Below, piece after piece: positions 5,719-42,389 of a stretch of 64,000 bases of DNA. The notes beneath the pieces were generated by a model. The model ran no database searches and was not told the origin of the DNA. It saw only the letters and a program-made list of their open reading frames with translations. The DNA lies in contig NZ_JAUZEE010000006.1 in the NCBI RefSeq assembly GCF_030705305.1, positions 248,001 to 312,000 of the forward strand, written 5' to 3'. A program made the translations under genes and the position numbers. How positions within the stretch are numbered: position 1 is the first letter of the stretch; each line of letters opens with the position of its first letter. The stretch comes from Leptothrix discophora. GTDB lineage: Bacteria > Pseudomonadota > Gammaproteobacteria > Burkholderiales > Burkholderiaceae_C.

Positions 5719-5819
5719 ACGTTGCCGTCGGGTTCTTCGTGATCGCCATGGTTGGCGATCGGGTTGGAACGTATCCCAAGGGGCTGTTGCCGACGGGCCG
5801 GTCCCCCCACAATCGACGC

Positions 5820-6770
5820 ATGTTGTCGCGTCGGGTGGTGGGGGTCATCTGGATCGGTCTGGCCGTGATGGTGCTGCTCGTGCCGTCGATCCGGCAGGCT
5901 GCATGGGCTGCCGGGGCTGCCGGAACCTCGCCGCCGGTCGCGCGGGTGGTGCCCAACGAGCCGGTGCTGCCGGTGGTGCGCTTCGCGCCCGAGGCCGACT
6001 ATGGGCCCTTCGTCTACCGCGACAACGAAGGTCGCGTGCGGGGCCTGTCGGTCGACCTGCTCAACCGGGTCGTGCGGCATGCCGGCATCTCGATGCAGAC
6101 GCTGCCGGCCCGGCCCTTGGCCGAGATCCTCGAAGGCGCCCGGCGCGGTGAGGTCGACCTGATCACCTCCCTGCGCCCGACGCCCGAGCGGGCCGAGTTC
6201 CTCGGCTTCACCCGCCCCTACGTGCAGGTCGATGCCATCGTGGTCGGCCGCAGCGGCACGCAACCGCCGGACCTGCGCGATCTGGCCGGGCGCAAGGTCG
6301 CGGTGGGCGCGGGCTATGCCGTCGAAGGCCATGTGCGCAAGGGCCATCCCGGCGTGCGCTGGCAGCCGGTGGCCGATGACCGCGCCGCGCTGGCGCTGCT
6401 GCGTGCCGGTGACGTCGACGCGGTCGTGGCCGACGTCGCCAGCGTTCACTTCATCGTCGGCCAGGAGGGTTGGCCGCCGCTGTCGCTGGGCCGGCCGGTG
6501 GGCTTTAGCTATCCGCTGTCCTTCGCCTGGCGCAAGGACCTGCCGGCGCTCGGTGCGGCGCTGGAGGCCGGACTCGGCGCGCTGACCCAGGACGAGCGCG
6601 CCGAGGTGCTGCGGCGCTGGATGCCGGCCGAGGCGCTCGATCCGGCTGATGACCGTCGCCTGCCGCTGATGCTGGCCGGTGCGGCCGCGCTGGTGTTCGG
6701 TGCGGGCGCGGTGCTGCTGGGCCGCTGGCGCCGCCGTGGCAGGGCGCGGGCTGGCGGAGAACAGCCTTGA
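5820..6770 (+). CDS. periplasmic amino-acid-binding-like (SBP family 3) protein with C-terminal membrane anchor
   Basis: A 316-residue protein with an N-terminal signal segment (about 8-30), one family-3 solute-binding domain (about 45-270: VVRFAPEADYGPFVYRDNEG, RGEVDLITSLRPTPERAEFL, DLAGRKVAVGAGYAVEGHV, GDVDAVVADVASVHFIV) and a hydrophobic helix at about 287-307 followed by arginines. No permease or ATPase gene is adjacent, so it is probably a ligand sensor rather than a transporter part. Its stop overlaps the TTG start of the downstream diguanylate cyclase (TTGA), a strong sign of coupled translation and joint function. Ligand unknown. Confidence 0.8.
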   Translation: MLSRRVVGVIWIGLAVMVLLVPSIRQAAWAAGAAGTSPPVARVVPNEPVLPVVRFAPEADYGPFVYRDNEGRVRGLSVDLLNRVVRHAGISMQTLPARPLAEILEGARRGEVDLITSLRPTPERAEFLGFTRPYVQVDAIVVGRSGTQPPDLRDLAGRKVAVGAGYAVEGHVRKGHPGVRWQPVADDRAALALLRAGDVDAVVADVASVHFIVGQEGWPPLSLGRPVGFSYPLSFAWRKDLPALGAALEAGLGALTQDERAEVLRRWMPAEALDPADDRRLPLMLAGAAALVFGAGAVLLGRWRRRGRARAGGEQP

Positions 6771-9154
6771 TCCGGCGTCGCGGGCCGGAAGGCGAGCCCG
6801 GCGAGCGACCGGATGACGACCGGGGCGACGACCCGGGCAGCGACCCCGGCAACGACCCGGGCAACGAATGGATGCCCTTCGACCCCGGTCGCCGGCCGAC
6901 CTGGCCGGCTGCGCTGGCGCAGGCTGGCGTCGACCTGCCCGGTCCCGGTCCGGTCGAGGAGCCGGTGCGGATCGAGGAACAGCTGCGGCTGTGGGCCCTG
7001 CAGCAGCCCTGGCTCACGCTGCTGGTGGCCTTGCTGGGCGCGTGGTTCTGGTCCTCGGCGGCGATGTGGCTGTCGCGCTTCCCAGGGCAGGTGGCGGCCA
7101 TCTGGTACACGAACGTGTGGGGCCTGGCGCTGCTGCTGGTGCTGCCGCGACGGGCCTGGCCTGCGGCCCTGCTGGCCGCCGGGCTGGGCATCCTGGGCGC
7201 CAACCTGGCCTACGGTGACGATGTCGGCCTGGCCGCGCTGCTGGTGCTGCCCAACCTGCTGGAGATGGTCGTGGCGGCCTGGCTGCTGCGGCGCGGTGGC
7301 GACCACCGCCGTCTGCTGCACGATCCGGCGGTGATGTTGCAGGTGATGCTCAAGGGCTCGCTGCTGCCCGCCGTGCTGGGCACGGCGGCGGCCAGTGCGC
7401 TGATGGCGCTGGCCGGCCTCAACCAGACCGTGCAGGTGGCCTGGGGCTGGCTGGACAGTTCGGCGGTCGGATCGGCCACGCTGCTGCCGATCACGCTGGC
7501 GGTGCTCGCCAGCGACGCTCGGACCCTGCGCGATCACCTGTTTGACGGCCGTACCGCCGCGCTGGCGCTGATCAGCGTCGGCGTGGCGCTGCTGGCCATC
7601 CTGATGCTGCCGTTTCCCTACGTCTACATGGTGCTGCCGCTGGTGCTGGGCGCCGTGCGGCTGCGCTTCGTGTCGGTGGCCGCCGCCGTCGCGCTGGTGT
7701 CGGTGACGGTGGGCACCTTGATCGCGCAGGGCCTGTTCCCGGCGCCGCCGCAGACCGCCCATTGGCAGCAGCTGCTGCTCTACACGCCACTGCTGGCCGC
7801 GCTGATGCCGCCGCTGCTGCTGGCCGCGTCGGCCGAGCAGGTGCGACGCCAGACGCTCGAGCTGGAACGCAGCCGCGAGCGCTACCGCTCGCTGTACGAG
7901 CGCACGCCGGCCATGATGGTGTCGGTCGACCGCACCGGCCGGCTGATCGGCGTGAGCCGCCTGTGGCTGGAGCGCATGGGTCTGGCGCGCGCCGAGGTGA
8001 TCGGTCGCCGGCTGGACGATTTCATGACCGAGCCAGCCCGCCTGCTGGCCAGCCTGCAGGTCTGGCCGGCGCTGCTCAATGCCGGCAGCTGCCGCGACGT
8101 CGAGCTGGAGCTGGCGCGCAGCGACGGCCTGGCCATCGACGTGCTCGTGTCGGCCACCACCGACCGCGCCAGCGACGGCCAGGTGCTGCGTGCCCACCTG
8201 GTGCTGGAGGACATCACCCGCAAGCGCTTGGCCGAGCAGCTGGCGGCCGAGCACGTGCGCAGCAAGGTGACGCTGGAGAGCATCGCCGACGCCGTCATCA
8301 CCAGCGATGCGCGCGGGCGCATCACCTACGCCAACCCGGTCGCGCTGACATTGCTGGGCCAGACCGAGGCGGCGCTGCAGGGTCGCCCGTATGGCGAGGC
8401 GCTGGTCCGGCGCGACGTCGACAACGGTGCCGAGGTGCCCGACCCGGTCGCCCTGTGCCTGCAGCAGCGTCGCCGCCAGGTCGCGCCGCAGCGGGTCCGG
8501 CTGGCCCATGCCGGCGGTGGCGAGCATGTGGTGCAGGAATCGGTCTCGCCGATGGTGGCCGACGGCCGGGTGATCGGCGCGGTCGCCGTGCTGCACGACA
8601 TCACCGAGGCCCACGCCATGGCCTTGCAGCTGGCCCATCGGGCCCAGCACGACGCGTTGACCGGCCTGCCCAACCGCCTGTTGCTGCACGACCGCCTGGT
8701 CCAGGGCCTGCAGCTGGCGCGCCGGCAGCGCCGCGTGCTGGCGCTGATGTTCATCGACCTGGACGGGTTCAAGGCCATCAACGACCGCTTCGGCCATGCC
8801 AGCGGCGACGCGCTGCTGTGCCAGGTCGCCGAGCGGCTGCTGGAACAGTTGCGCGCCAGCGACACCGCCTGCCGGCTGGGTGGCGACGAATTCGTCGTGC
8901 TGCTGCCGCAGGTCGAGTCGGTGATCGATGCCGGCCGGGTCGCGCACAACCTGCTGGAGGCGATCTCGCGGCCCTATGCGCTGGCGGGCACGCTGGTGCA
9001 GGTCAGCGCCAGCATCGGCGTGGCCTGCCACCCGGAAGGCGGGCTGGACGAGGTCAGCCTGATGCGCAATGCCGACCGCGCGATGTACGAGGCCAAGCAG
9101 CGCGGCCGCAACCAGGTGCACTTCTTCGCGCCGCCGGCGGCACGCACGGCCTGA
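6767..9154 (+). CDS. membrane diguanylate cyclase: MASE1-like sensor, two PAS domains, GGDEF
   Basis: This 795-residue protein makes cyclic di-GMP. Order: an acidic Gly/Asp/Pro low-complexity leader (about 1-35), an 8-10 helix membrane region resembling MASE1 (about 75-355), two PAS domains (about 375-490 and 500-615) and a C-terminal GGDEF domain. The active site is intact (GGDEF, about residues 705-709), with an RxxD inhibitory site (RASD) exactly five residues before it, so product inhibition is expected. There is no EAL domain. The TTG start overlaps the stop of the binding-protein gene; an ATG at 6872 would remove the acidic leader but lose the overlap. With its partner it likely forms a periplasmic-signal to c-di-GMP pathway. 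Confidence 0.88.
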   Translation: MIRRRGPEGEPGERPDDDRGDDPGSDPGNDPGNEWMPFDPGRRPTWPAALAQAGVDLPGPGPVEEPVRIEEQLRLWALQQPWLTLLVALLGAWFWSSAAMWLSRFPGQVAAIWYTNVWGLALLLVLPRRAWPAALLAAGLGILGANLAYGDDVGLAALLVLPNLLEMVVAAWLLRRGGDHRRLLHDPAVMLQVMLKGSLLPAVLGTAAASALMALAGLNQTVQVAWGWLDSSAVGSATLLPITLAVLASDARTLRDHLFDGRTAALALISVGVALLAILMLPFPYVYMVLPLVLGAVRLRFVSVAAAVALVSVTVGTLIAQGLFPAPPQTAHWQQLLLYTPLLAALMPPLLLAASAEQVRRQTLELERSRERYRSLYERTPAMMVSVDRTGRLIGVSRLWLERMGLARAEVIGRRLDDFMTEPARLLASLQVWPALLNAGSCRDVELELARSDGLAIDVLVSATTDRASDGQVLRAHLVLEDITRKRLAEQLAAEHVRSKVTLESIADAVITSDARGRITYANPVALTLLGQTEAALQGRPYGEALVRRDVDNGAEVPDPVALCLQQRRRQVAPQRVRLAHAGGGEHVVQESVSPMVADGRVIGAVAVLHDITEAHAMALQLAHRAQHDALTGLPNRLLLHDRLVQGLQLARRQRRVLALMFIDLDGFKAINDRFGHASGDALLCQVAERLLEQLRASDTACRLGGDEFVVLLPQVESVIDAGRVAHNLLEAISRPYALAGTLVQVSASIGVACHPEGGLDEVSLMRNADRAMYEAKQRGRNQVHFFAPPAARTA

Positions 9155-9166
9155 GCGGCTCAGGCC
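9148..9166. terminator. hairpin between convergent cyclase and prlC genes
   Basis: GGCCTGAG-CGG-CTCAGGCC, with perfect 8-bp arms, spans the cyclase stop codon and sits in the 21-base gap before the convergent prlC stop. No T-run follows. Confidence 0.45.
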
Positions 9167-9175
9167 GGCGGTCGT

Positions 9176-11251
9176 TCAGGCCGGCTGGGTGGTCATGTCC
9201 TGCGGAGCCTCGCTCATGCCCTGGTGGCGCAGCAGCGCGTCGATGCGGGGTTCGCGGCCGCGGAAGGCCTTGAAGTTGTCGATCGCGTCGCGGGCGCTGC
9301 CGGCCTCCAGGATCTCGGTGCGGTAGCGCCGGCCGGTCGCCGGGTTGAGGATGCCTTCTTCCTCGAAGGCGCTCCAGGCGTCCGCGCTCAGCACCTCGGC
9401 CCACTTGTAGCTGTAGTAGCCGGCCGCGTAGCCGCCCGCAAAGATGTGCGAGAAGGTGTGCTGGTAGCGGTTGAACGCCGGCGGCACCAGCACCGCGACC
9501 TCCTGGCGGACCTCGTCGAGCGTGCGCTGGACCGCCTCGGCGCTGGCCGAGCCCGTCTCGGCATGGATGCGCATGTCGAACAGCGCGAACTCGACCTGGC
9601 GCAGCGTCATCATGCCGCTCTGGAAGTTCTTGGCCGCCGTCATCTTGTCGAACAGCGCGCGCGGCAGCGGCTCGCCGGAGTCGACGTGGGCGGTCAGTTG
9701 CTGCAGCACCTCCCACTCCCAGCAGAAGTTCTCCATGAACTGGCTGGGCAGTTCGACGGCATCCCACTCGACCCCGCTGATGCCCGAGACGCCGAGGTCG
9801 TCGACCTGGGTCAGCATGTGGTGCAGGCCGTGGCCGAATTCATGGAACAGGGTCTGGACCTCGTCGTGCGTCAGCAGCGCGGGCTTGCCGTCGATCGGCG
9901 CGGTGAAGTTGCACACCAGGTGCGCCACCGGCGTCTGCAGCGAGCCGGTGTCCGGGCGCAGCCAGCGCGAGCGCACGTCGTCCATCCAGGCACCGGGCCG
10001 CTTGCCCGGGCGGGCGTAGGGGTCGAGGTAGAACTGGCCGACGATCTGGCCGGCCCGCTCGATGCGGTAGAAGCGCACCGACTCGTGCCAGACCGGCGCG
10101 CTGTCGGGCGTGATCGTCACCTCGAACAGGGTCTCGATGATGCGGAACAGGCCGGCCAGCACCTTGGGCTCGGTGAAGTACTGCTTGACCTCCTGGTCAC
10201 TGAAGGCGTAGCGGGCCTCCTTGAGCTTCTCGCTCGCATAGGCGCTGTCCCAGGACTGCAGCTCGGTGATGCCCAGCTCGGCGGCGGCAAAGGCCTGCAG
10301 CTCGGCCAGGTCGCGCAGGCCGTGCGGCTTGGCGCGGCGGGCCAGGTCGCGCAGGAAATCGAGCACCTGCTGCGGCGTCTCGGCCATCTTCGGGACCAGC
10401 GACAGGTGGGCATAGCTGGGCAGGCCCAGCAGCGCGGCTTCCTCATGGCGCAGACGCAGGATCTCGGCCATCACCGGGCCGTTGTCGCGCTCGGCCGGGC
10501 CGGTCTCGCAGGCCCGGGTGACGTAGGCGGTGTAGAGCTCGCGGCGCAGCTCGCGGTCGTCGGCGTACTGCATCACCGGCAGGTAGACCGGCATGTGCAG
10601 CGTCAGCTTGTGGCCGTCCTGGCCGTCCTTCTCGGCCGCCGCGCGGGTGGCGCTGCGCACGTCCTCGGGCACGCCGGCCAGGCGCTCGGCCGGCACGACC
10701 CGCGCGTAGCCGTCGGTCGCGTCGAGCACATGCTCGGAGAACTTCTGCGAGGCCAGCGCCTGGGCCTCCTGGATCTGCGCGTAGCGGGCCTTGGCCTCGC
10801 CCTGCAGCTCGGCGCCGCCGAGCACGAAGTCGCGCAGGCTGTGGGCCAGTTCCTGCTGGCGGGCCCGGTTCAGCGTCGCGGCGGCCGGGCTGGCCGCGAT
10901 GGCCTTGTACTTGGCGTAGAGCCGCTCGTCGGCGCCCAGGCGCGTGTAGAACTCGGTGATGGCGGGCAGCTTCTCGTTGTAGGCCGCGCGCAGCTCGGGC
11001 GTATCGGCCACGCCCTTGAGGTGGCTGATGGCGCCCCAGGCGCGGCCCAGCCGCTCGGTGGCCACCGACAGCACGCGCGACAGCGCCTCGTAGTCGGCCG
11101 GCGTGGCGTCGCTGACGGCGCTTTCCAGGGCGGTCTCGGCCTGGGCCAGCAGCACGTCGATGGCCGGTCCGACATGCTCCGGACGGATGGCGGCGAACTG
11201 GGGCAGCGGGGCGGCGTCGAGCAGGGGGTTGTCGGTGTGCATCGTGGGCAT
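9176..11251 (-). CDS. prlC: oligopeptidase A (M3 family zinc metallopeptidase)
   Basis: The 691-residue protein is an M3 thimet-oligopeptidase-family enzyme that degrades short peptides, including cleaved signal peptides, in the cytoplasm. The zinc site is intact in LFHEFGHGLHHML (HExxH), followed by the family pattern SGVEWDAVELPSQFMENFCWE. The length matches E. coli OpdA (680). The start at 11251 (MPTMHTDNPLL) has GAGAA upstream; a second ATG nine bases later is equally possible, and a longer upstream reading has no similarity. It is a single gene, converging on the cyclase. Confidence 0.93.
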   Translation of the reverse strand: MPTMHTDNPLLDAAPLPQFAAIRPEHVGPAIDVLLAQAETALESAVSDATPADYEALSRVLSVATERLGRAWGAISHLKGVADTPELRAAYNEKLPAITEFYTRLGADERLYAKYKAIAASPAAATLNRARQQELAHSLRDFVLGGAELQGEAKARYAQIQEAQALASQKFSEHVLDATDGYARVVPAERLAGVPEDVRSATRAAAEKDGQDGHKLTLHMPVYLPVMQYADDRELRRELYTAYVTRACETGPAERDNGPVMAEILRLRHEEAALLGLPSYAHLSLVPKMAETPQQVLDFLRDLARRAKPHGLRDLAELQAFAAAELGITELQSWDSAYASEKLKEARYAFSDQEVKQYFTEPKVLAGLFRIIETLFEVTITPDSAPVWHESVRFYRIERAGQIVGQFYLDPYARPGKRPGAWMDDVRSRWLRPDTGSLQTPVAHLVCNFTAPIDGKPALLTHDEVQTLFHEFGHGLHHMLTQVDDLGVSGISGVEWDAVELPSQFMENFCWEWEVLQQLTAHVDSGEPLPRALFDKMTAAKNFQSGMMTLRQVEFALFDMRIHAETGSASAEAVQRTLDEVRQEVAVLVPPAFNRYQHTFSHIFAGGYAAGYYSYKWAEVLSADAWSAFEEEGILNPATGRRYRTEILEAGSARDAIDNFKAFRGREPRIDALLRHQGMSEAPQDMTTQPA

Positions 11252-28608: not shown

Positions 28609-30926
<2,318 letters not shown>

Positions 30927-30951
30927 AGCGGAGACTTGCGCCAACCCGGAA

Positions 30952-30977
30952 AGTCCCGCTTCTGCGGGACTTTTTTT
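30952..30977. terminator. terminator shared by clpA (+) and selC (-)
   Basis: AGTCCCGC-TTCT-GCGGGACT followed by seven T residues on the plus strand, 25 bases after clpA. On the minus strand the same hairpin follows the CCA end of tRNA-Sec, with a shorter TTT tail, so it can serve both transcripts. Confidence 0.9.
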
Positions 30978-30980
30978 GTT

Positions 30981-31076
30981 TGGCGGAAGGGAATGGGAGT
31001 CGAACCCACCCGGCGACGCATGGCGCCACCCACCGGGTTTGAAGCCCGGCCGACCCACCAGGATCGTTTCCCCTCC
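30981..31076 (-). tRNA. selC: tRNA-Sec (UCA anticodon)
   Basis: A 96-base tRNA with encoded CCA. It has the 8-bp acceptor stem peculiar to tRNA-Sec (one G-U pair), a GGTTCGACTCC T-arm, a long variable arm, and anticodon TCA (complement 31040-31042) in the loop CTTCAAA, as in E. coli selC. Only 29 bases separate it from the selB stop and no promoter is obvious there, so it may be processed from the selB transcript. Confidence 0.97.
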
Positions 31077-31105
31077 AGGGATGTCTGGCCGCTGTCGCGC
31101 CCGTC

Positions 31106-33106
31106 TCAGGACGCAGCAGCGGGCGTGATCGTCGTCGTGTCCTCCGGCCGAGGGGAAGCCGCCCCGTCGCGGAACAACTGGCTGTCGGCACGCAGGCGAT
31201 GGACGTCACCGATGCGTCGCAACAGGCCGATGCGATCGAGGTATTCGAGGATCTGGATCGCCCGCTTGCGGCCCAGCGACGTGGCGTCGCGGAACCGGGC
31301 GGCCGTGACCTCGCCGTCGTGGGCGTGGGCGACCTCGCGGGCGATGCTGCAGAGTCTCGCCATCGTGGCCGGTGGGTAGTAGAGGTCTTTCACCACTTGC
31401 ATCAGTTCGCCGCGCTGCGCGAGCCGGGCCAGCGTGACGCGCATCAGCGGCTCGGATTCCTGCGTGTCGCGCGCCAGGTCGCGCACCCAGGCGCCCTCGA
31501 AACCGGCGGCGGCCAGGCCCGGGCTCACCTTCTGAGCCAGTCGCTCTTCGGTCGCCGACAGCTTGATGCCATGTTCGGGCAGGTGCACGAAGGCGCCGCG
31601 CACGTGCAGGCGCGCATCGGTCTGAAGACGCGCCAGCAGCGCGCGGAAGAGCGGCTCCGGCAGGCGAGGCAGGGCCAGGCGACGCAGCCGCGCGGCATCC
31701 GGGCCCAGTTCTTCCGGGTGACCGGCATGGAAGCGCGCCAGCGCCGCCAGCAGGGCCTCACCGGCCAGGGCGGTCTGGACCGCGCCGAGTGCCCAGCCGT
31801 CGGGCGTGCGCAGCGTGACGGCCTCGTCGAGGCCGCTCAGCAGGCTCGCCAGCGACTGGCCCTGCGCGGCCGCCAGCCGGGCCAGGTCGACGCCGTGCGG
31901 GGCGACGTCGACCAGCGCCGCGACCCGCTCGGGCAGCGTCGGCAAGGCCAGCGCGGACAGCTCGGCCAGGCGCTGCGGCGTGCGGCGGTAGCGCACGGGG
32001 GCATGCGGGTCGAGCACCATGCCGCCGGCCAGCGTTCGGCTGGCCGATGCGTCGCGCAGCACCACGCGGTCACCGTGCCAGGCGCCGACGGGGCTGCGCA
32101 GCACCAGCTGGACGCGGGCGCTCGCGCCGGGCATCAGGCGGTCGCCTTCCTCGTGCCCATCGAGGATCGCGACGGTGCCGGGCATGTCGATCGCGCCGAT
32201 GTGCACATGCACCGGCGTGCCGCTGCGCAGCGGCTTGGCCTCGTCGTGCCAGAGCGTCAGGCTCGCGTCGAGGCGATCGGTGCTCAGCATGGCGGCCGGC
32301 GCGACCAGCCACTGGCCGCGCGCGATCTCGTCCTTGGCCAGGCCAACCAGGCCGATCGCGCAGCGCTGGCCGGTCTCGGCCTGCTCGACCACGCGGTTCT
32401 GTGCATGCAGGCTGCGCACCCGCACGCGCTGACCGCCCGGCACGCGCACCAGCTCGTCGCCGATCTCCACCCGTCCGGCATGGACCGTGCCGGTGACGAC
32501 CGTGCCGACGCCGCCGAGCGTGAAGGCCCGGTCGATCGCCAGCCGGAAGGCCCCGTCGCCACGGGCATCGCGGCCGGCATGGCTTCTGGCCGCTGTCCAC
32601 AGGCGCTCGCGCAGCTCGGCCAGGCCGGCACCGGTGTGGGCCGAGACCGTCAGCACCGGTGCGCCGGCCAGCGAGCTGCCTTGCACCAGCGCGGCGGCCT
32701 CGGCCTGCACGGCGGCCAGCCGGGCTGCGTCGACCCGGTCGGCCTTGGTGACGACCACCGCGCCCTCGCGCAGGCCCAGCAGCGACAGCACGGCCAGGTG
32801 CTCGCGCGTCTGCGGCATCACGCCGTCGTCGGCGGCGACCAGCAACAGCGCATGGTCGATGCCGGTGGCGCCGGCCAGCATGGTGTGGACCAGCCGCTCA
32901 TGGCCGGGCACGTCGATGAAGCCGATCGATGCGGCCGCTTCGGCCTTGGCCGGGTCCGCGCCGGGCAGGTCCAGGAAGGCGTAGCCCAGCTCGATGCTGA
33001 TGCCGCGCTTCTTCTCCTCGGGCAGTCGGTCGGTGTCGACGCCGGTCAGCGCTTTCACCAGCGTGGTCTTGCCGTGGTCGATGTGGCCGGCGGTGCCGAC
33101 GATCAT
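31106..33106 (-). CDS. selB: selenocysteine-specific elongation factor SelB
   Basis: SelB is the EF-Tu-like GTPase that delivers Sec-tRNA to UGA codons marked by a SECIS hairpin. The 666-residue protein starts with the G1 motif [12 protein letters not shown], then [12 protein letters not shown] (G3) and VVTKAD (G4); domains II-III follow, and the last ~270 residues are winged-helix repeats that bind SECIS RNA. It is longer than E. coli SelB (614). GGAGA precedes the ATG. Last protein gene of the selenium operon, directly before selC. Confidence 0.97.
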
Positions 33107-33161
33107 GGGTGTCTCCGCAGCGGGTTCGGCATGGGCTCAGGCCATGAGCCTGCGCAGTGGC

Positions 33162-34292
33162 TCAGGTCGTGAGCTCGCGGGCGCTGATGACGTACTTGAA
33201 GGTGTCGGGCGCCAGCTCGTCGAAGCGACCGCTGGCGTTCTCGCCGTTCGGGTACATCAGGAAGGACTTGGTGCCGGTGTCGGCGCTGCCGGGCAGGACC
33301 AGGTCGTTGACGGTGTTCCAGCCCACCCAGTTGCCTTCCCAGCCGCCGAACAGGCCCTTCATGACCGGCGCGACGACCGGGTGCGCCGGGTCCTTGATCC
33401 AGTCGGGCGTCTCCTGGCGCATCACCTTGAGCACGTCGGCCGGGTCCATGGCGACCCAGCCCAGGCCGGCGAGGTGGACCTCGGCGCGGCAGTGCTGCGC
33501 GCCCTTCAGGTTGGCCGGGTTGCCGCTGAGTTCCTTGTAGCCAAAGGCCGACGGGACCAGGCGCAGGCCGTAGACATCGCGGGCCGGCACGCCGACCGCG
33601 CGGCACAGGCCGACGAAGACGGCGTTCAGGTCGGCGCACTTGCCGCCCAGGTTGCCGGTCTCCAGCATGGTCTTGATGTCGCCGGTGCCGCAGCCGCGGG
33701 TCTTGGGCTCGCGGTAGGCGTGGGCCACGACCCAGCCGTAGAGGGCGCGGACCTTGTCCAGATCGGTCTTCGCGCCACGGGTCGCTTCCAGCGCGGTCTT
33801 GCGCACGATGCCGTCCAGCGGCTTCAGTTCGGTGGGCTGCAGGTTGGCCTTGAGCACGGCCGGGTCCTCGGCGACGGTGCCGCGGCCATTCCAGTCGACG
33901 GCGCGGTTGCGGGTGCGCAGCGTGCTCGTCAGCGTCACGGTCGGCTGGGTCGTCTCGGGCGCGAAGGCCGCGTGCAGCATCCGCACGCCATGTTTCGGAT
34001 CGCGCGTCAGGCCGATGGTGCGGGCGTTGCCGGTCCAGCTGTTGTCGACCGACCGCTGGTAGTCGGATTCGATGTCGGGCACCGGCAGCCAGAGCTGGGT
34101 CGCGCCCTGCACGTCGGCGATCTGGACGGTGGTCGTGACCTCGAAGGTGCGCCAGCCACCGACCTGCGGCTCGAAGCGGCGCTCGGCCGGTGCGGCGGTC
34201 TGGGCGCGGGTCAGGCCGGGCACCAGCAGCGGGGCGGCGAGGGCAGCGGTGGAGGCCAGCAGGCTGCGGCGGTCGAGTCGGATGTTCTTCAT
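33162..34292 (-). CDS. transglutaminase-fold protein with Tat signal, in the selenium operon
   Basis: A 376-residue exported protein. The N-terminus has a twin-arginine motif ([10 protein letters not shown]) and a hydrophobic stretch ending near LTRAQ. A beta-rich N-terminal region (about 45-130) is followed by a transglutaminase-like core with a complete Cys-His-Asp triad: C219 in [13 protein letters not shown]273 in [10 protein letters not shown] and D283 in AMDPAD. Bacterial members are usually thiol proteases or amidases rather than cross-linkers. It lies between tlpA-like and selB genes (gaps 81 and 55 bases) on the same strand, so it is probably cotranscribed with formate dehydrogenase assembly genes. 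No known role in selenoprotein biology; function unknown. Confidence 0.8.
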
Positions 34293-34340
34293 GGTGCGGG
34301 TTCCAGGAGACGTTGACGTTTCGGGGGAGAGGGTTCGAGG

Positions 34341-34364
34341 CGTGGGCGTGGGCGTGGGCGTGGG
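34341..34364. repeat. CGTGGG hexanucleotide, four copies
   Basis: Four exact CGTGGG units in the gap between the tlpA-like stop and the transglutaminase start. Being six bases and outside coding sequence, it would not shift a reading frame. Confidence 0.7.
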
Positions 34365-34373
34365 GGCGAAGGC

Positions 34374-34985
34374 TCAGACCAGCTCGCGCATCCAGCGGCG
34401 GGCGGCCGGACCGGCCCAGTCGAGTTCGCCGATGACGCTGAAGGCGGCCCGGCCCTTGCGATCGACCACGACGGTGGTCGGGAACACACGGGCGCCCCAG
34501 GCCCGCGAGGCGGCGCCGTCGCGGTCGCGCAGCACCGGCAGGCTCAGCGGTTCGGCGGCGAGGTAGCGGCGCACGGCGGCGTCGGTCTCGCGGTGGTTGA
34601 CGGTGACGACCTGCACGCGGTCGTCCAGGTGGCGCTGCGCCAGCAGCTCCAGCGACGGCAGTTCGGTGCGACAGGGCTCGCACCAGCTGGCCCAGAAGTT
34701 GATGACGACGACCTGGCCGCGGGCATCTGCCAGACGCCAGGCCGGGCCGTCCCAGGTCGGCAGTTCGAGCGCCGGCGTGGCTTGACCGCGTGGCCACGCG
34801 GTGCGCTGGGCGCCGGGGGGATCGCCGTTGGCGAGGCAGGCGGCCGGCGCGGCGCTGAGGCTGGCGGCCAGTCCGGTGGTCGATGTCAGCAGCGAGAGCC
34901 CCTGTCGCAACGCCTGGCGCCGGGCGGGCGAGGGCGGTGCACCGGCTCCCGCCGGACCGGCGAGGAACGGATGATCAGGCGTCAT
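34374..34985 (-). CDS. TlpA-like periplasmic thioredoxin-fold protein, in the selenium operon
   Basis: A 203-residue protein with an N-terminal export signal (RR at 22-23, hydrophobic 28-48) and a TlpA/ResA-type thioredoxin domain (about 68-203): VVVINFWASWCEPCRTELP with C102/C105, and the cis-proline loop VFPTTVVVD. TlpA proteins are membrane-linked or periplasmic reductants. The gene follows selA by 27 bases. It could keep a cysteine or selenol reduced during maturation of the exported formate dehydrogenase, but that is inference from position only. Confidence 0.82.
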   Translation of the reverse strand: MTPDHPFLAGPAGAGAPPSPARRQALRQGLSLLTSTTGLAASLSAAPAACLANGDPPGAQRTAWPRGQATPALELPTWDGPAWRLADARGQVVVINFWASWCEPCRTELPSLELLAQRHLDDRVQVVTVNHRETDAAVRRYLAAEPLSLPVLRDRDGAASRAWGARVFPTTVVVDRKGRAAFSVIGELDWAGPAARRWMRELV

Positions 34986-35012
34986 GGTCGTGGTTCGTTG
35001 GCAGACGTCGGG

Positions 35013-36491
35013 TCAGGCCAGCCGATCGGCCAGCAGCGGCAGCTGGGCTGCCAGGAGGGCGTGATTCTCGACGCAACGCAGGTCGAGGATCAGCCGGTCG
35101 TCCGTGATGCGGCCGATAACAGGGCGCGGCAGGCTGCGCAGCGCGCTGGCCAAGTCGTCCAGCGCGCGGCCGGCGCCCTTTTTCTGTGTCGGCGTGATCG
35201 CCAGGCCGGCCGAGGGCAGGCGGTCGACCGGGAGCGAGCCCGAGCCGATCTGGCCGAGCAGGTCATCGACCACGGCGACGTCGACGCGCGGCGCAAGCGC
35301 CTGTGTGAACGGCGCGTGCAGCGCTTGCGCGGTCGCCAGGATGTCGGCCAGCGGGCGCGTCAGCAGCCGCAGCGTGGGCAGGTCGCGGCGGAGGCGTTCC
35401 GGGCGCAGGTAGAGCCGCAGCGTGGCCTCCAGCGCGGCCAGTGGCAGCTTGCTGACGCGCAGCGCGCGCTTCATCGGGTGCTTGCGGATGCGCTCGATCT
35501 CGGCACGGCGGCCGACGATCAGGCCGGCCTGCGGGCCGCCCAGCAGCTTGTCGCCGCTGAAGGTGACGACCTGGCAGCCGGCGGCCAGCTGTTCCTGCGG
35601 CATGGGCTCGCGCGGCAGGCCATGGGCCGACAGGTCGATCAGCGAGCCGGCCCCAAGGTCGCTGACCAGCGGCAGGCCATGGCGCTGCGCGATGCCGGCC
35701 AGCGTGGCCTCGTCGACGCTGGCGGTGAACCCCTGCACCACATAGTTGCTGGTGTGGATCTTCATCAGCAGCGCGGTGCGCTCGCCGATGGCCTGTTCGT
35801 AGTCGCGCGGGTGGGTGCGGTTGGTGGTGCCGACCTCGACCAGTCGGACGCCTGCCGCGGTCATGACATCGGGGATGCGGAACGCGCCGCCGATCTCGAC
35901 CAGTTCGCCGCGCGAGACGATCACCTCGCGGTCACGCGCCAGTGCGGCCAGCGTCAGCAGCACGGCCGCCGCGTTGTTGTTGACAACGGTGGCCGCCTCG
36001 GCGCCGGTGAGCTGGCACAGCAGGTCCTCGACCAGACTGTCGCGATCGCCGCGGCCTCCGCTGGCCAGGTTGTATTCGAGGTTGTTCGGGCTGGCCATCA
36101 GCGCCAGCACCTGCTGCAGGGCCGCGTCGGCCAGCAGTGCGCGGCCGAGGTTGGTGTGGATGACGGTGCCCGTGCAGTTGAAGACGGCACGCATCGCGGG
36201 CGCGAGCGCCGCGTCGACGCGCTGGCCCAGCGCATGGCCCAGGGCGGCCGGTGCGACGGCCTCGCGTGCCAGCGTGCCGGCCAGCGCCTGCACGCGCAGG
36301 CTGTCCAGCAGCGACCGGGCGTGGCCGGCGACCAGCGTGTGGCCATGCTCGGCCACCAGCGCCGCGACCTCTGGCTGGCGCAGCAAGCGATCGACGGCGG
36401 GAAGGTCCTTGGGGCCGGCCGGCTCGGAGGGTGAGCCTGTCTCGCCGGGGGCCTTGGAACCGTGAACCACGGATTCGTCGGGCCGCGCCAT
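35013..36491 (-). CDS. selA: L-seryl-tRNA(Sec) selenium transferase SelA
   Basis: SelA converts Ser-tRNA(Sec) to Sec-tRNA(Sec) using selenophosphate. The 492-residue product has the PLP lysine K315 in FSGDKLLGGPQAG and the upstream FNCTGTVIHTNLGRA signature. It carries about 25 extra N-terminal residues compared with E. coli (463). The ATG shares one base with the fdhE stop (TGATG), so translation is coupled. Selenophosphate would come from SelD, which is not encoded in this window. Confidence 0.97.
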   Translation of the reverse strand: MARPDESVVHGSKAPGETGSPSEPAGPKDLPAVDRLLRQPEVAALVAEHGHTLVAGHARSLLDSLRVQALAGTLAREAVAPAALGHALGQRVDAALAPAMRAVFNCTGTVIHTNLGRALLADAALQQVLALMASPNNLEYNLASGGRGDRDSLVEDLLCQLTGAEAATVVNNNAAAVLLTLAALARDREVIVSRGELVEIGGAFRIPDVMTAAGVRLVEVGTTNRTHPRDYEQAIGERTALLMKIHTSNYVVQGFTASVDEATLAGIAQRHGLPLVSDLGAGSLIDLSAHGLPREPMPQEQLAAGCQVVTFSGDKLLGGPQAGLIVGRRAEIERIRKHPMKRALRVSKLPLAALEATLRLYLRPERLRRDLPTLRLLTRPLADILATAQALHAPFTQALAPRVDVAVVDDLLGQIGSGSLPVDRLPSAGLAITPTQKKGAGRALDDLASALRSLPRPVIGRITDDRLILDLRCVENHALLAAQLPLLADRLA

Positions 36492-37576
36492 CACGCGCCT
36501 CCGGGATCGGGTGGCGCGCTGCCGGGGTCGGCGCCGGACGTGCCCTGCTCGTCCTGGGCATCCGGATCGCCGAACAGCAGCATCAGGTTCAGGCCGTGGC
36601 GCTGCAGGCCGGTCTCGGCAACCAGCAGGTCCAGCGTGATCGAGGCGAGGTCGTCGGCCACCGCGTCGATACCGGGATCGCGGTCGGTGTGCAGGATCTT
36701 CAGGTAGTGGCCGCAGTCGTCGCAGGTCTCGGCCTGGACCGCCGCCTGGGCGGCGCGGGCCGAGCGCGCGGCGTTCTCGTCCTCGTCGAGGCCGTCGGCC
36801 AGCTCGGCGGTGTCGAGTGACTGGAAGGCGATGGCCTTGCCGCTGCCGCAGTGCGCGCACTGGATGCGCACGCGGTGCCATTCGGTGTTGCACAGGCCGC
36901 AATGCAGGTAGCGCTGGCCGAGCGATTCGCCCTCGCTTCGGGTGACGCTGGCCACCGGACGGCTGCCGCAGCAGGGGCAGACGCCGCTGGCATGGTCATC
37001 CGGACGACCGAAGGGCTGTCCGCCGCCGATGTGGGCACGCTGCACCGACAGCACGAGGTGGGTCCAGTAGACCTGGAGGGCGGCGGCGATCAGCGGCGCG
37101 GTGCCGAGGTCCAGCCCCCGCATCAGGCCGGTCAGCAGGCGGTCGGCCTGGTGTTCGAGGTGGTCGTTGCTGGCCTGCAGAAGGCCGTCGATCAGGGCGG
37201 CGACCGGCGCAGGGGCCTGAGGTCGCAGCGTGCCGCAGATCTGACGCAGCGCGGCCTGCCAGGCGGGGTCGCGTGGCCAGTCCAGCGTGGACAGCGGGGG
37301 CTCGCCGCGCTGCGCGGCGCGGTCGAGCGCGGCGGCGTCGGGCAGGGGCACGCCGCTGGGGAAGTCCTGCAGCGCCTGGTGCTGGGCCAGGGCAAGGTCG
37401 GCCATGAAGCCGAGGAAGTCGCCCATCGCGTGGCCGCGCGCGAGCTGGCGCAGGCGCATCGCGCGCTCGGCGAACAGCGTCTCGCGCTGCGGCCAGCGGA
37501 AGTAGGGCGTCTCGCCGGCAGGACGCGAGGCGATCTCTTCCGGGGTCATCACGCGGACCGTGGCGGTCGCTGTCAT
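36491..37576 (-). CDS. fdhE: formate dehydrogenase accessory protein FdhE
   Basis: FdhE is required for assembly of respiratory, Tat-exported formate dehydrogenases in E. coli and binds iron through CxxC motifs. The 361-residue protein has four cysteine groups: CPCC (200-203), CGLC (226-229), CAHC (240-243) and CDDC (285-288). An acidic/Ala-rich insertion (about 255-282) precedes the last pair, and a Pro/Gly/Asp-rich tail ends the protein; both are extra to the E. coli form (309). It is separated from fdnI by a hairpin and coupled to selA. Confidence 0.93.
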   Translation of the reverse strand: MTATATVRVMTPEEIASRPAGETPYFRWPQRETLFAERAMRLRQLARGHAMGDFLGFMADLALAQHQALQDFPSGVPLPDAAALDRAAQRGEPPLSTLDWPRDPAWQAALRQICGTLRPQAPAPVAALIDGLLQASNDHLEHQADRLLTGLMRGLDLGTAPLIAAALQVYWTHLVLSVQRAHIGGGQPFGRPDDHASGVCPCCGSRPVASVTRSEGESLGQRYLHCGLCNTEWHRVRIQCAHCGSGKAIAFQSLDTAELADGLDEDENAARSARAAQAAVQAETCDDCGHYLKILHTDRDPGIDAVADDLASITLDLLVAETGLQRHGLNLMLLFGDPDAQDEQGTSGADPGSAPPDPGGA

Positions 37577-37691: not shown

Positions 37692-38312
37692 TCAACGGCG
37701 ACGCGTCATCTCCTCATGCCAGAGCGGATGGTTCAGCCGCGCCCAGTTCTCGGACACCGTGCCGCGCGTCATCGCCCGGACCGTGCCCTTGACCCAGATC
37801 GCCGCATAGACATGCACGATCACCGACAGCACCAGCACCACCGCCGAGACCGAGTGCAGCAGCACGGCGATGCGCAGCACGTTGATCGGGAACAGCGGCG
37901 CGAACCACGGGCGCCAGAACATGATGCCGGTGACCACCAGCACGGCCAGGCTGATCGACATGGCCCAGAACACCCGCTTCTGGCCGGCGTTGTACTTGCC
38001 GACCGGCGGCAGGTTGGCCTTGTTGCCACGCAGCATCTCGCCCATGTGCTTGGACCACTCCTTGTCGGCCGGCGTCATCACGTTCTCCTTCCACAGCCGC
38101 AGGAAGAGGCCCAGGAAGGCCACGACCATCAGCAAGCCCATGAAGGGATGCAGGATGCGTGTCCACGGGCCGCCGCCGAACAGGTTGGAGAAGAAGAACA
38201 GGCTCGGGTGGAAGAAGGCCAGGCCCGACAGGCCGGCCAGCACGAACATCAGGGCGATGAACCAGTGGTTCATGCGCTCCGAGTCGCCATAGCGCTGGAT
38301 CAGCTTGCTCAT
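37692..38312 (-). CDS. fdnI: formate dehydrogenase cytochrome b556 (gamma) subunit
   Basis: The 206-residue membrane subunit takes electrons from the beta subunit to quinone. Four transmembrane helices are visible (about 15-37, 53-73, 113-133, 145-170), with heme-ligand-type histidines in [24 protein letters not shown] and VIVHVYAA. Length and pattern match FdnI/FdoI (217/211). Its ATG overlaps the fdnH stop (ATGA). Confidence 0.95.
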
Positions 38313-39175
38313 GACTTTTCCTCCTCCGACTCGACCGGGCCGACCTTCATGTAGTGGAAGAAGCCGGCCACCACCGCGCCGACCATGCCGGCCACCGCGA
38401 GCGGCTTGGCGATGCCCTTCCAGACCGACACCATCGGGTTGATCGACGGATTGGCGGGCAGGTCCTCCAGCTCGGGCTTGTCGGCATGCTTGAGCACGTA
38501 CATGACGTGCGTGCCGCCGACGCCCTGCGGGTTGTAGAGGCCCGCGTTCTGGAAGCCGCGATCCTTCAGCTCACCCGCGCGCTTCTCGCCATACGCCACC
38601 ATGTCTTCCTTGGTGCCGAAGCCGATCGCGCCGGTCGGGCAGGTCTTGACGCAGGCCGGCTCCAGGCCCACGCCGACACGGTCCGAGCACAGCGTGCACT
38701 TGTAGGCCTTGTTGTCGGCCGCGCTGATGCGCGGCACGTCGAACGGGCAGCCCTTGATGCAGTAGCCGCAGCCGATGCAGTTCTCGCTGATGAAGTCGAC
38801 GATGCCGTTGCTGTACTTGACGATCGCGCCGGGTGAAGGACAGGCCTTCAGGCACCCCGGGTCCTCGCAGTGCATGCAGCCGTCCTTGCGGATCAGCCAC
38901 TCGAGGCTGCCGTTCTCGGGCTCGACCTCGAAGAACTTCATCACCGTCCAGCTGCTGGCGGTCAGGTCGCTGGGGTTGTCGTACACGCCGATGTTGGTGC
39001 CCACCTCGTCGCGCAGGTCATTCCAGTTCATGCAAGCCACCTGGCAGGCCTTGCAGCCGATGCACTTGGACTCGTCGATGAGCTTGGCGACCTGCGGCGC
39101 GTTGGTTCGCACCTGGGGCGTCGGGGACGTCGTGGCTGAGCGTGCAACCACGTCTTGCGATTGGAGGCTGGCCAC
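38309..39175 (-). CDS. fdnH: formate dehydrogenase iron-sulfur (beta) subunit
   Basis: A 288-residue ferredoxin-like subunit with cysteines for four [4Fe-4S] clusters: [37 protein letters not shown] and CTLCSD...CVKTCP. A C-terminal transmembrane helix (about 251-275) anchors it, as in FdnH. It starts with GTG three bases after the fdnG stop. It is exported with FdnG on the latter's Tat signal (known for the family). Confidence 0.95.
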
Positions 39176-39178
39176 TTG

Positions 39179-42100
39179 TCAGCTCACTTTCTCGATGTTG
39201 ACGAGGAAGGCCTTGAACTCCGGTGTCTGCGAGTTCGCGTCGCCGACAAACGGTGTCAGGGCATTGGCCAGGTAGCCGTTCTGCGTCACCCCCTTGAAGC
39301 CCCAGTGGATGGGAATGCCGACGTGATGGACCTTCTTGCCGTTGACCTCCAGCGCCTTGATGCGCTTGGTGACCACGCAGGCCGCGACCAGCTCGCCGCG
39401 CTTGCTGCGCACCTTGACCTGGTCACCCTGCTTGATGCCCTTCTCCTTGGCCAGGTCCTCGCCGATCTCGACGAAGGGCGCTGGCTGGACGATGGCATTG
39501 CTGCGCGAGTGCTTGGTCCAGTAGTGCAGGTGCTCGGTCAGGCGGTAGGTCGTCGCGGCATACGGGAACTCGTCCTGCTTGCCGAAGTTCTCCCGGTCAC
39601 CCTTGTAGACCCGGGCCGCCGGATTGCTGACCGCGCCCGGGTTGGTCGGGCACATCAGGTTGACGCCCAGCGGGGTCTCGAAGGGTTCGTAGTGCTCGGG
39701 GAAGGGGCCCTCGTTCATGCCCACCGCGTGCAGCCTCGCGACGCCCTCGGGGTTCATGATGAAGGCACCGACGCCCTGCTCCGGCGCGGCATCCGGACGC
39801 ATGTCCGGCACGTCCGCACCGCCGGCCCAGCTCGTGCCGTTCCAGGCCAGGTACTTGCGCGACGGATCCCAGGGCTTGCCATCCTTGTCGGCCGAGGCGC
39901 GGTTGTAGAGGATGCGGCGGTTGGCCGGCCAGGCGAAGCCCCAGTTCGGGAACACGCCCAGGCCAGTCGGGTCGCTGTTGTCACGCCGGGCGGTCAGGTT
40001 GCCGCTCGGGCCCCAGCAGCCGGCGTAGATCCAGTTGCCGCAGCTTGTCGTGCCGTCGTCGCGCAGCACCGCGAAGCCCGGGATCTGCTCACCGGCCTTG
40101 ACCAGCGGAGCGACCGGCGCCGCAGGTGCGGCCGCAGCGGTGGCGGTTGCCGGCTTGGCACCCGCGCTCGCAGCCACCGCAGGCTTGGCACCCGCAGCCG
40201 GTGCAGCGGGCGGCGGCGGGTAGAGGTCGGCCAGCGCCTTGCCGGAGATCTCCCGCAGCAGCTCGCCCGGCTGGGGCACGTTGGCGTTGAGGTAGGGCCA
40301 GCTCAGCGCGGCGATCGGCTCGGGCAGCGCACCGCCGTCCTTCGCGTACATGCCGCGCAGCTTGACGAACAGCCGCGCCATGATTTCCGAGTCCGGCTTG
40401 GCCTCGCCCGGGGGATCGACCGCCTTCTCCTTCCAGCTGATGACGCGGCTGGAGTTGGTGAAGGAGCCGGTTTCCTCGGCGAAGCAGCTGGTCGGGAAGC
40501 GGAAGACCTCGGTCTGGATCTTGGAAGGATCGGCATCGTTGAGCGGGCCGAAGTTCTTCCAGAACTCGCTGGTCTCGGTCTCCAGCGGGTCCATCACGAC
40601 CAGGTACTTCAGCTTGGCCAGGCTCTCCGAGAGCTTCTTCTTGTTGGGCACGGCCGCCAGCGGGTTGAAGCCCTGCACGACGAAGCCGTTCATCTTGCCC
40701 TGGTGCATGCGCTCGAAGATCGCCAGGATGTCGTAGGCGCCATCGCGCTTCGGGATCCAGTCGTAGGCGAAGCTGTTGTCGGCCGTCGCGGCATTGCCGT
40801 AGTAGGCCTTCATCAGGCTGGTCTGCCACTTCGCGAAGTTCTGCGTGAAGGCCATCTGCCCCGGACGCAGCGGCTTGCCGGTGCGTGCGGCCAGGTAGGT
40901 CGCACGGTCAGCGTCGGCGTCGGTCGGTGCACCGATGTAGCCCGACAGCACCTCGGTGTAGGCACACATGTCGGTGATGCCCTGCACGTTGGCATGGCCG
41001 CGCAGTGCGTTGATGCCGCCACCCGGGCGTCCCATGTTGCCCAGCAGCAGCTGGATCATGGCCATCGTGCGGATGTTCTGCGAGCCCACCGAGTGCTGGG
41101 TCCAGCCGAGCGCGTAGCAGATGGTCATCACCTTGTCCGGCGCCGCGGTGCCGGCCAGCATCTCGCACACCTTGAGGAACTTGTCCTTGGGCGTGCCGGT
41201 GATCTGGCTCACCAGCTCCGGCGTGTACCGGGCGTAGTGCTTCTTCATCTGCTGGAAGACGCACTGCGGGTTCTGCAGCGTGTCGTCCGTCTTCACGAAG
41301 CCGTCCTCGCCCATCTGGTAGCCCCAGGTGGACTTGTCGTAGCTGCGCTTCTCGGCGTTGTAGCCGCTGAAGAAGCCGTTCTCGAAGGCGTAGCCCTCCT
41401 TGACCAGGAAGGCGGCATCCGTGTTCAGCTTGACGTAGTCAAGGTGAATCTTGTCGCTGCTCAACAGGTAGTTGATGACACCGGCCAGGAAGGCGATGTC
41501 GGTGCCGACCCGGATGGGCGCGTAGAAGTCCGCCACGGCGGCCGAGCGCGTGAAGCGCGGGTCGACCACGATGAGCTTGGCCTTGCGCTGCTGCATGGCC
41601 TCCACCACCCACTTGAAGCCGCAGGGGTGGGCTTCGGCGGCATTGCCGCCCATCACCAGGACGAGATCGGTGTTCTTGATATCCGTCCATGAATTGGTCA
41701 TCGCTCCGCGACCGAAAGTCGGGCCCAGACTGGACACCGTCGGTGCGTGTCAGATGCGCGCTTGCGTGTCCAGGGCGACCATGCCCAGGCCACGAGCGAT
41801 CTTGACGCTCAGATAACCGGATTCATTCGAGGAGGCGGACGAGATCAGGAAGCCGGTGGTGTTCCAGCGGTTGACCGTGACGCCCTTGTCGTTGGTCTTG
41901 ATGAAGTTGGCGTCCCGGTCGGCCTTCATGTGGGTGGCCACGCGGGTCAGCGCGTCTTCCCAGGACAGGCGCTTCCATTCGTTGCTGCCGGGTTCGCGAA
42001 CCTGCGGGTACTTCACGCGGTCCTTGGACTGGATCATGTCCATCACGCCGGCACCCTTGGGGCACAGCGTGCCGCGGTTGACCGGGTGATCCGGGTCGCC

Positions 42101-42337
42101 CTCGACGTGGACGATGGTCGACTTGACGTTCTTCGACTTGTCGCCCAGCGTGTACATGATCAGGCCGCAACTGACCGAGCAATACGGGCAGATGCTGCGG
42201 GTCTCGGTGGTCCTGGCCAGCTTGAAGTTTCGCGTCTCGGCCAGAGCGGCCGTGGGCGAGAAGCCCAACGCGACGAGGCTGGACGCTGCCAGCCCCGCTC
42301 CACTGACCCGGAAGAACTGTCTCCGGTCCATGTCCAT
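39179..42337 (-). CDS. fdnG: selenocysteine-containing formate dehydrogenase catalytic (alpha) subunit
   Basis: One continuous gene of 1,052 residues read through an in-frame TGA (complement 41750-41752) as selenocysteine, residue 196, the same position as in E. coli FdnG. The context ARI-U-HAPTVSSLGP matches the family. Earlier: Tat signal MDRRQFFRVSG, and the [4Fe-4S] ligands C50, C53, C57 and C92 (CPYCSVSCG, LCPKG). The rest is a molybdopterin oxidoreductase (GRGAMTN, VMGGNAAEAHP) and a C-terminal dinucleotide-binding-like domain. It oxidises formate in the periplasm. An Ala/Pro-rich insert of about 50 residues (DNA about 40090-40220) precedes GFAVLRDDGTTSCGNW. Conceptual translation stops at the TGA, so automated calls would give two fragments. 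AGGAGAT precedes the ATG at 42337. Confidence 0.97.
41705..41752 (-). promoter_or_regulatory. bacterial SECIS element in fdnG
   Basis: Directly after the UGA, the transcript folds into a stem with a small apical hairpin CCA-GUC-UGG (41733-41725) inside outer pairing CCGA...UCGG. Counting from the U of UGA, U17, G23 and U24 are all present; these are the positions known to matter for SelB binding in the E. coli fdhF SECIS. Confidence 0.8.
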
Positions 42338-42389
42338 GGGTGGGATCTCCTGCGGGCCTGCGGCCCCTTGCGTTCGATGCGAGCGAGCC

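Follow-up and report, generated by a model that had tools for sequence, protein, structure and literature searches.

Why would genes for a thioredoxin-like protein and a transglutaminase-fold protein lie between selA and selB, among genes otherwise concerned with selenocysteine and formate dehydrogenase? We examined this in the window, a stretch of 64,000 nucleotides of Leptothrix discophora DNA. Both open reading frames were recovered on the minus strand, in the order fdnGHI–fdhE–selA–tlpA–tgl–selB–selC (Table 1), with intergenic gaps that measure, in order from selA to selC, 27, 81, 55 and 28 bp, bearing out the original prediction of a tight, same-strand pair lodged between selA and selB. 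The surroundings that it had described were also recovered: fdnG with an in-frame UGA (residue 198 of the frame read, the start of which is not fixed) and a SECIS_3 match inside its span, fdnH, fdnI, fdhE, selA, selB and a tRNA-Sec. The start codon of selA is most likely the ATG at 36491. A scan of positions 30900–36600 found no sigma-70-like promoter, weak evidence that a single transcript may run across this interval. In the C-terminal half of the window FdnG there is also a low-complexity stretch rich in Ala and Pro (PPPPAAPAAGAKPA...).

Table 1. Positions of the genes of the window and of genes discussed at other loci
Feature	Coordinates	Strand	Basis
fdnG, selenocysteine formate dehydrogenase catalytic subunit	39179..42343	-	translation with TGA=U
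SECIS_3 match inside fdnG	41697-41755	-	
fdnH, iron-sulfur subunit	38309..39175	-	TIGR01582, 437 bits
fdnI, cytochrome b subunit	37692..38312	-	TIGR01583, 188 bits
fdhE	36491..37576	-	TIGR01562, 267 bits
selA	35013..36491	-	TIGR00474, 569 bits
tlpA-like gene, 203 aa, WCEPC	34374..34985	-	ORF and translation; AhpC-TSA and Redoxin matches
tgl, 376 aa, transglutaminase fold	33162..34292	-	ORF; Transglut_core match
selB	31106..33106	-	TIGR00475, 446 bits
selC, tRNA-Sec (UCA)	30981..31077	-	ARAGORN; Rfam RF01852, 80.3 bits
FCSD-type gene	L038:7944-9338		
FCSD-type gene	L054 about 8002-9351		
FCSD-type gene	L058:8004-9335		
FCSD-type gene	L048 about 4990-6309		
FCSD-type gene	L200:6994-8379		
FCSD-type gene	L225:7512-8879		
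Family-5 periplasmic solute-binding protein	L246:7871-9427	-	in-frame TGA
Family-5 periplasmic solute-binding protein	L276:7951-9477	-	in-frame TGA
Family-5 periplasmic solute-binding protein	L283:1891-3534	+	in-frame TGA
tRNA beside divergent selB	L047:15850-15942	-	tRNA-Sec by Rfam, 67.9 bits
GcvH-like and DsrE-like genes	L225:12092-12956		typed on this locus

The TlpA-like protein matches the Pfam families AhpC-TSA (80.1 bits) and Redoxin (75.1 bits), and the intact WCEPC site ascribed to it is present in the translation. It has the Redoxin fold and WCxxC in common with exported thiol-disulfide oxidoreductases of the TlpA/ResA type, but differs from them in being often paired with tgl and in scoring under the curated NCBIfam cut-offs: the nearest models were ResA (84.8 bits against a cut-off of 170), TlpA (66.7 against 230), DsbE (54.6 against 123) and StoA, each below its own cut-off. 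By reading of the translation, its N terminus is hydrophobic with an arginine pair, and the protein is probably an exported, thioredoxin-fold one. WCxxC is found in 89 of the 90 TlpA candidates of tgl loci. Of 139 loci, 76 have a TlpA gene less than 700 bp away from tgl and 14 have one farther off; in the other 49 none was found, with some loci stopping at contig ends. Because relatives keep both genes together in this way, tlpA–tgl is not a chance pair of open reading frames.

Tgl matches Transglut_core (PF01841) with 73.3 bits against a gathering cut-off of 23 and belongs to the transglutaminase-like superfamily, whose papain/transglutaminase fold it has; no NCBIfam model matches it at E 0.001. 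In an alignment of 139 relatives, C201, C219, H267, C268 and D283 are invariant in all 120 main-clade sequences. The triad first proposed, C219-H273-D283, was therefore right in its cysteine and aspartate and wrong in its histidine: the column of H273 varies between Y, F, W and H, and the predicted catalytic triad is C219–H267–D283, a role that we infer from the superfamily. C268 adjoins the catalytic histidine in the sequence. A disulfide between C201 and C268, or between C201 and C219, was rejected as a simple rule, as homologues retain either cysteine without the other. In our Tgl tree, which comes from a quick search under a simple model and has long branches, a weakly rooted first clade of 19 sequences is mixed, with serine replacing C219 in 12. 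Among the distant homologues at loci L166–L183 the catalytic cysteine has become serine in 12 of 18, and many of these loci adjoin a phospholipase/carboxylesterase-type gene (checked by Pfam on L155 only); the distant homologues are likely to be inactive or repurposed.

A twin-arginine-like N terminus was found by pattern match in 133 of the 139 Tgl sequences, which makes export of Tgl plausible. The AlphaFold structure model has a single N-terminal helix (residues 8–14) ahead of a beta domain at residue 48. TgpA, by comparison, consists of a membrane-embedded N-terminal part plus a periplasmic domain, an architecture that the 376-residue Tgl, with its Tat-like signal, does not appear from its model to match. 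The TgpA periplasmic domain (6g49/6g4h) and 3isr, a putative cysteine protease of Cytophaga hutchinsonii, share 17–19% identity with Tgl, and Tgl differs from both in its two further invariant cysteines, C201 and C268. A sequence search of the PDB found no strong relative (best E 0.035), and none of the fold relatives pointed to a substrate.

To place the pair among genomes, we used a sample of 300 genomes from the window's order, Burkholderiales, and called Tgl at E ≤ 1e-40. Tgl was found in 57 of them, in 42 at ≥40% identity. In a class-wide draw of 229 genomes, Tgl appeared in 2, of which one belongs to the window; no selenium gene lies within some 9 kb of the sole match outside the order (G443). 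SelB, SelD and MnmH were over cut-off in 85, 215 and 214 of the 300 genomes. Both Tgl and SelB are present in 22 genomes, Tgl without SelB in 35 and SelB without Tgl in 63; the co-occurrence of the two is weak (22/57; p 0.07 for all Tgl and 0.005 for the 42 at ≥40%). SelD is present in 52 of 57 Tgl-positive genomes versus 163 of 243 Tgl-negative ones, and Tgl is held by 21 of 44 families with SelD against none of 7 without it (p 0.033); this association reflects mostly differences between families, since families with Tgl nearly all have SelD and vary little within themselves. The five Tgl genomes in which SelD was not detected (G033, G146, G153, G170 and G215) include incomplete ones. Tgl is absent from 163 of the 215 SelD genomes and is thus dispensable for selenium use.

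A link between the pair and selenium genes, as the window suggested, is supported by gene neighbourhoods. We examined 41 of the 42 loci at ≥40% Tgl identity with long flanks (G052 was left out, and longer stretches took the place of loci L007–L035 and L116–L145, which had about 1.5 kb of flank). In 11 of the 41, from nine families, tgl lies within 10 kb of selAB/fdn, selD or mnmH, against a chance expectation of about 0.6 under a rough model (three selenium loci per genome, 10-kb reach); the 1.5% chance per genome in this model was estimated from the numbers of genes and the size of the genome and does not come from a measured control. In ten of the 11 the distance to selB, selD or mnmH is about 1.1 kb at most; at the remaining one, in G250, tgl stands about 1.3 kb from fdnG and about 9 kb from selB. 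None of the 18 distant homologues below 40% identity (L166–L183) is selenium-linked (one-sided Fisher p 0.011 versus 11/41).

The arrangements at these loci are varied. Next to selAB/fdn we found selA–tlpA–tgl–selB (the window, G000), selA–tgl–selB (G083), selA–(three predicted ORFs)–tlpA–tgl–selB with an FCSD-type flavoprotein as the last of the three ORFs (G187), selB–selC–tgl (G030 and G158), tgl–tlpA flanked by selC and a divergent selD (G138, which has a selD neighbour as well as sel genes) and tgl divergent from fdnG (G250). In three genomes selB is absent and tgl is in line with selD and/or mnmH, as tgl–selD–mnmH (G015), selD–mnmH–tgl (G214) and tgl–tlpA–selD (G225), and in G271 tgl–tlpA adjoins and faces mnmH. 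The identities of SelD and MnmH were checked by curated models on eight proteins. As a yardstick, among 87 selB loci from this sample only 5 had selD in the sequence read around them.

Among named contigs, at least 13 of 80 tgl loci are linked, eight through sel genes and five through selD, with mnmH present as well in four of the five; the figure is a lower bound because many of these contigs stop before the flank does. The 80 include at least two (L052 and L101, both unlinked) from the same genomes as G210 and G234. SelA was called at 200 bits, which excluded L057, where a partial SelA (50%, 131 bits) lies 1.7 kb downstream at a contig end. Conservation of the exact placement between selA and selB, the lack of which would have told against the original prediction, proved partial: tlpA follows selA immediately in the window and in L062, one extra gene intervenes after selA in L038, L054 and L058, and most relatives carry the pair elsewhere. 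In eight loci from three families (L153, L155, L157, L164, L165, L167, L175 and L179) a mogA-type gene stands directly beside tgl; the one checked, that of L155, is a molybdopterin adenylyltransferase.

The gene that intervenes in L038, L054 and L058, between selA and tlpA, encodes an FCSD-type flavoprotein of the sulfide dehydrogenase flavoprotein family. At E 1e-20, such genes occur in 5 of 15 sel-linked tgl loci versus 0 of 124 others. The family was assigned by Pfam for L225, L058, L038 and L200. The FCSD-type gene lies ahead of tlpA–tgl–selB in L200 and after selA in L048, where the pair follows selB; in L225 it lies between selA and selB, with tgl absent there. All six FCSD-type genes in sel operons (Table 1) have twin-arginine-like starts, five of the six loci have tlpA–tgl on the same contig, and identity is 66–71% among three compared (71% between L200 and L058). 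The flavoprotein would suggest that the compartment of the pair also hosts redox chemistry of chalcogenides. A further FCSD-type copy, with 61% identity, is found upstream of fdnG in L263.

Our preferred answer to the question of the locus, offered tentatively, is that tlpA–tgl may form a two-protein periplasmic module that serves SelD-dependent selenium use in general in Burkholderiales, not the selenol of an exported formate dehydrogenase. Tgl would be exported in folded form through Tat, and its C219–H267–D283 residues, together with the two other invariant cysteines, would cleave or capture selenium on small thiols or peptides as substrates. TlpA, as redox partner, would pass on electrons that keep the Tgl cysteines reduced, reduce selenium species, or both. 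The direction of the pathway would be inward, with usable selenium then delivered to SelD in the cytoplasm for selenocysteine and, in other species, for tRNA 2-selenouridine. In some sel-linked relatives the sulfide-dehydrogenase-type flavoprotein would join TlpA and Tgl, which fits chalcogenide redox chemistry. We favour a mechanism of periplasmic selenium supply, which would suit the extra cysteines, the pairing with a thioredoxin, the flavoprotein of some relatives and TrxA as a precedent. A more specific version, in which the pair (with the FCSD-type protein in some relatives) acquires selenium in the periplasm upstream of SelD, the three invariant cysteines of Tgl bind or release it (as a perselenide or selenotrisulfide carrier, or as a peptidase for selenium-bearing thiols) and the pair's own thioredoxin recharges them, we consider unlikely as worded.

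Thioredoxin 1 (TrxA) is a cytoplasmic protein. In Pseudomonas stutzeri, according to the abstract of PMC8538045, TrxA reduces selenite, passing through a protein–Se intermediate, and supports the synthesis of selenoproteins, so that a thioredoxin-fold protein in selenium supply has a precedent. Thioredoxin-fold cysteines act there on selenite, a point of similarity to the proposed action of TlpA; the difference is that the protein is the general thioredoxin and that a transglutaminase-fold partner is not named in that abstract. How bacteria gather selenium and hand it over to SelD is poorly understood, and Lin et al. (PMC5322559) count a transport system specific to selenium, a chaperone for its trafficking and regulators among the factors that may still await identification. 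The candidates put forward in the accessible parts of Zhang 2008 (PMC2432076) and Lin 2015 (PMC5322559), namely SirA-like, HP1/HP2 (YqeB/YqeC), YedE, YedF, LysR_Se and DUF3343, were, like tlpA–tgl, found by recurrent neighbourhood with selD or selAB; an exported thioredoxin–transglutaminase pair is not named among them in those parts. Further selenium-linked genes are described in PMC9312934 and PMC13188914, again as far as their available text goes. The word transglutaminase occurs once in PMC5322559, in a row of a STRING table, and is absent from PMC2432076, PMC9312934 and PMC13188914. Among the matches listed in searches of the open-licence literature, no paper joined a TlpA or transglutaminase-like protein with loci of selD or selAB.

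If correct, the more specific version would make tlpA–tgl the first dedicated exported selenium-handling pair for selenocysteine and selenouridine alike, as far as the literature searched shows. Found beside selAB, selD and mnmH in different genomes, this lineage-specific, probably exported pair is a testable candidate for the gap in selenium gathering ahead of SelD. It would also separate the supply of selenium from the maturation of selenoproteins, because the pair persists in genomes that have neither SelB nor FDH-N.

The strongest competitor is a general envelope function, in which TlpA would keep a transglutaminase-like peptidase of the periplasm reduced at its catalytic cysteine, and proximity to selenium genes would result from hitchhiking, co-transfer or an inherited order of genes instead of function. 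Most tgl loci at ≥40% identity (30 of 41) have no selenium link in the stretch read, and many Comamonadaceae-type contigs carry the pair away from selenium genes, frequently behind an alaS-type gene (the one checked, in L188, encodes alanyl-tRNA synthetase). Nor is the sel-linked label more clustered on the Tgl tree than after shuffling (14 changes versus a shuffled mean of 14.4, with 230 of 500 shuffles as low); linkage has accordingly been gained or lost many times, and gain and repeated loss look alike on the tree. Hitchhiking, however, hardly accounts for recurrent placement beside selenium loci of three kinds, across nine families and in varied orders, when selD itself is so seldom seen near selB. 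On balance we find a general envelope function somewhat unlikely.

A second possibility keeps the selenium connection: the pair would repair or remove thiols and proteins of the envelope that selenite or selenide has modified, and would for that reason be kept near selenium genes. The same excess of selenium neighbours speaks for such a defence, and a thioredoxin fold beside a cysteine-peptidase fold suits repair and removal. Nothing specific speaks against this defence; we rate it as quite unlikely.

The original prediction held that the pair protects or reduces the selenol of exported FDH-N, or trims its catalytic subunit FdnG. Its position in the operon in the window and in relatives speaks for this, as do the apparent export of TlpA, Tgl and FdnG alike and the presence of tgl near fdn genes in L199 and L200. 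As a general role, however, the idea fails: 22 of the 42 genomes whose Tgl has ≥40% identity lack SelB over cut-off, and in none of these 22 does the FDH-N alpha subunit exceed its curated cut-off (17 have weaker, related molybdoenzymes) or the beta subunit its own (three weaker matches), whereas SelD is present in 19. SelB genomes, conversely, mostly do without Tgl (63 of 85). Because tgl stands beside selD and mnmH where selB is absent, and FDH-N is over cut-off in none of the 22, the pair appears to be tied to selenium use generally and not to the formate dehydrogenase selenol. We therefore rejected selenol protection and FdnG trimming as the common role and hold them very unlikely to explain the pair, which may still have a function at the formate dehydrogenase selenol as an additional role in selenocysteine users.

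Most improbable of all is that tgl aids exported molybdoenzymes, FDH-N included, a reading for which the eight mogA-type neighbours, a molybdoenzyme-type iron-sulfur subunit gene near tgl in L148 and the weaker formate-dehydrogenase-like molybdoenzymes seen in 17 of the 22 SelB-less Tgl genomes could be cited, but which leaves the selD and mnmH placements unexplained, while the mogA adjacency may be inherited gene order and four of its eight loci fall in the first clade, where 12 of 19 sequences are without the catalytic cysteine.

Several other features came to light at sel loci. In the family-5 solute-binding gene of L246, L276 and L283 the in-frame TGA is followed by a hairpin whose core is identical in the three genomes; the gene is in line with a TlpA-like gene, selB and selA in L246 and L276, and L283 ends inside selB. 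The protein is a candidate new selenoprotein. It reaches no NCBIfam cut-off, and a search of two other genomes of one family gave no homologue at E 1e-60. In Rubrivivax sp. A210 (L047), where tlpA–tgl follows selA, the tRNA that adjoins the divergent selB is read by ARAGORN as tRNA-Cys with a GCA anticodon, and by Rfam as tRNA-Sec, which suggests that a cysteine codon could be read there as selenocysteine. Finally, a GcvH-like and a DsrE-like gene both lie downstream of selB in 9 of 87 sel loci and, going by their neighbourhood, are a possible selenium-trafficking pair.
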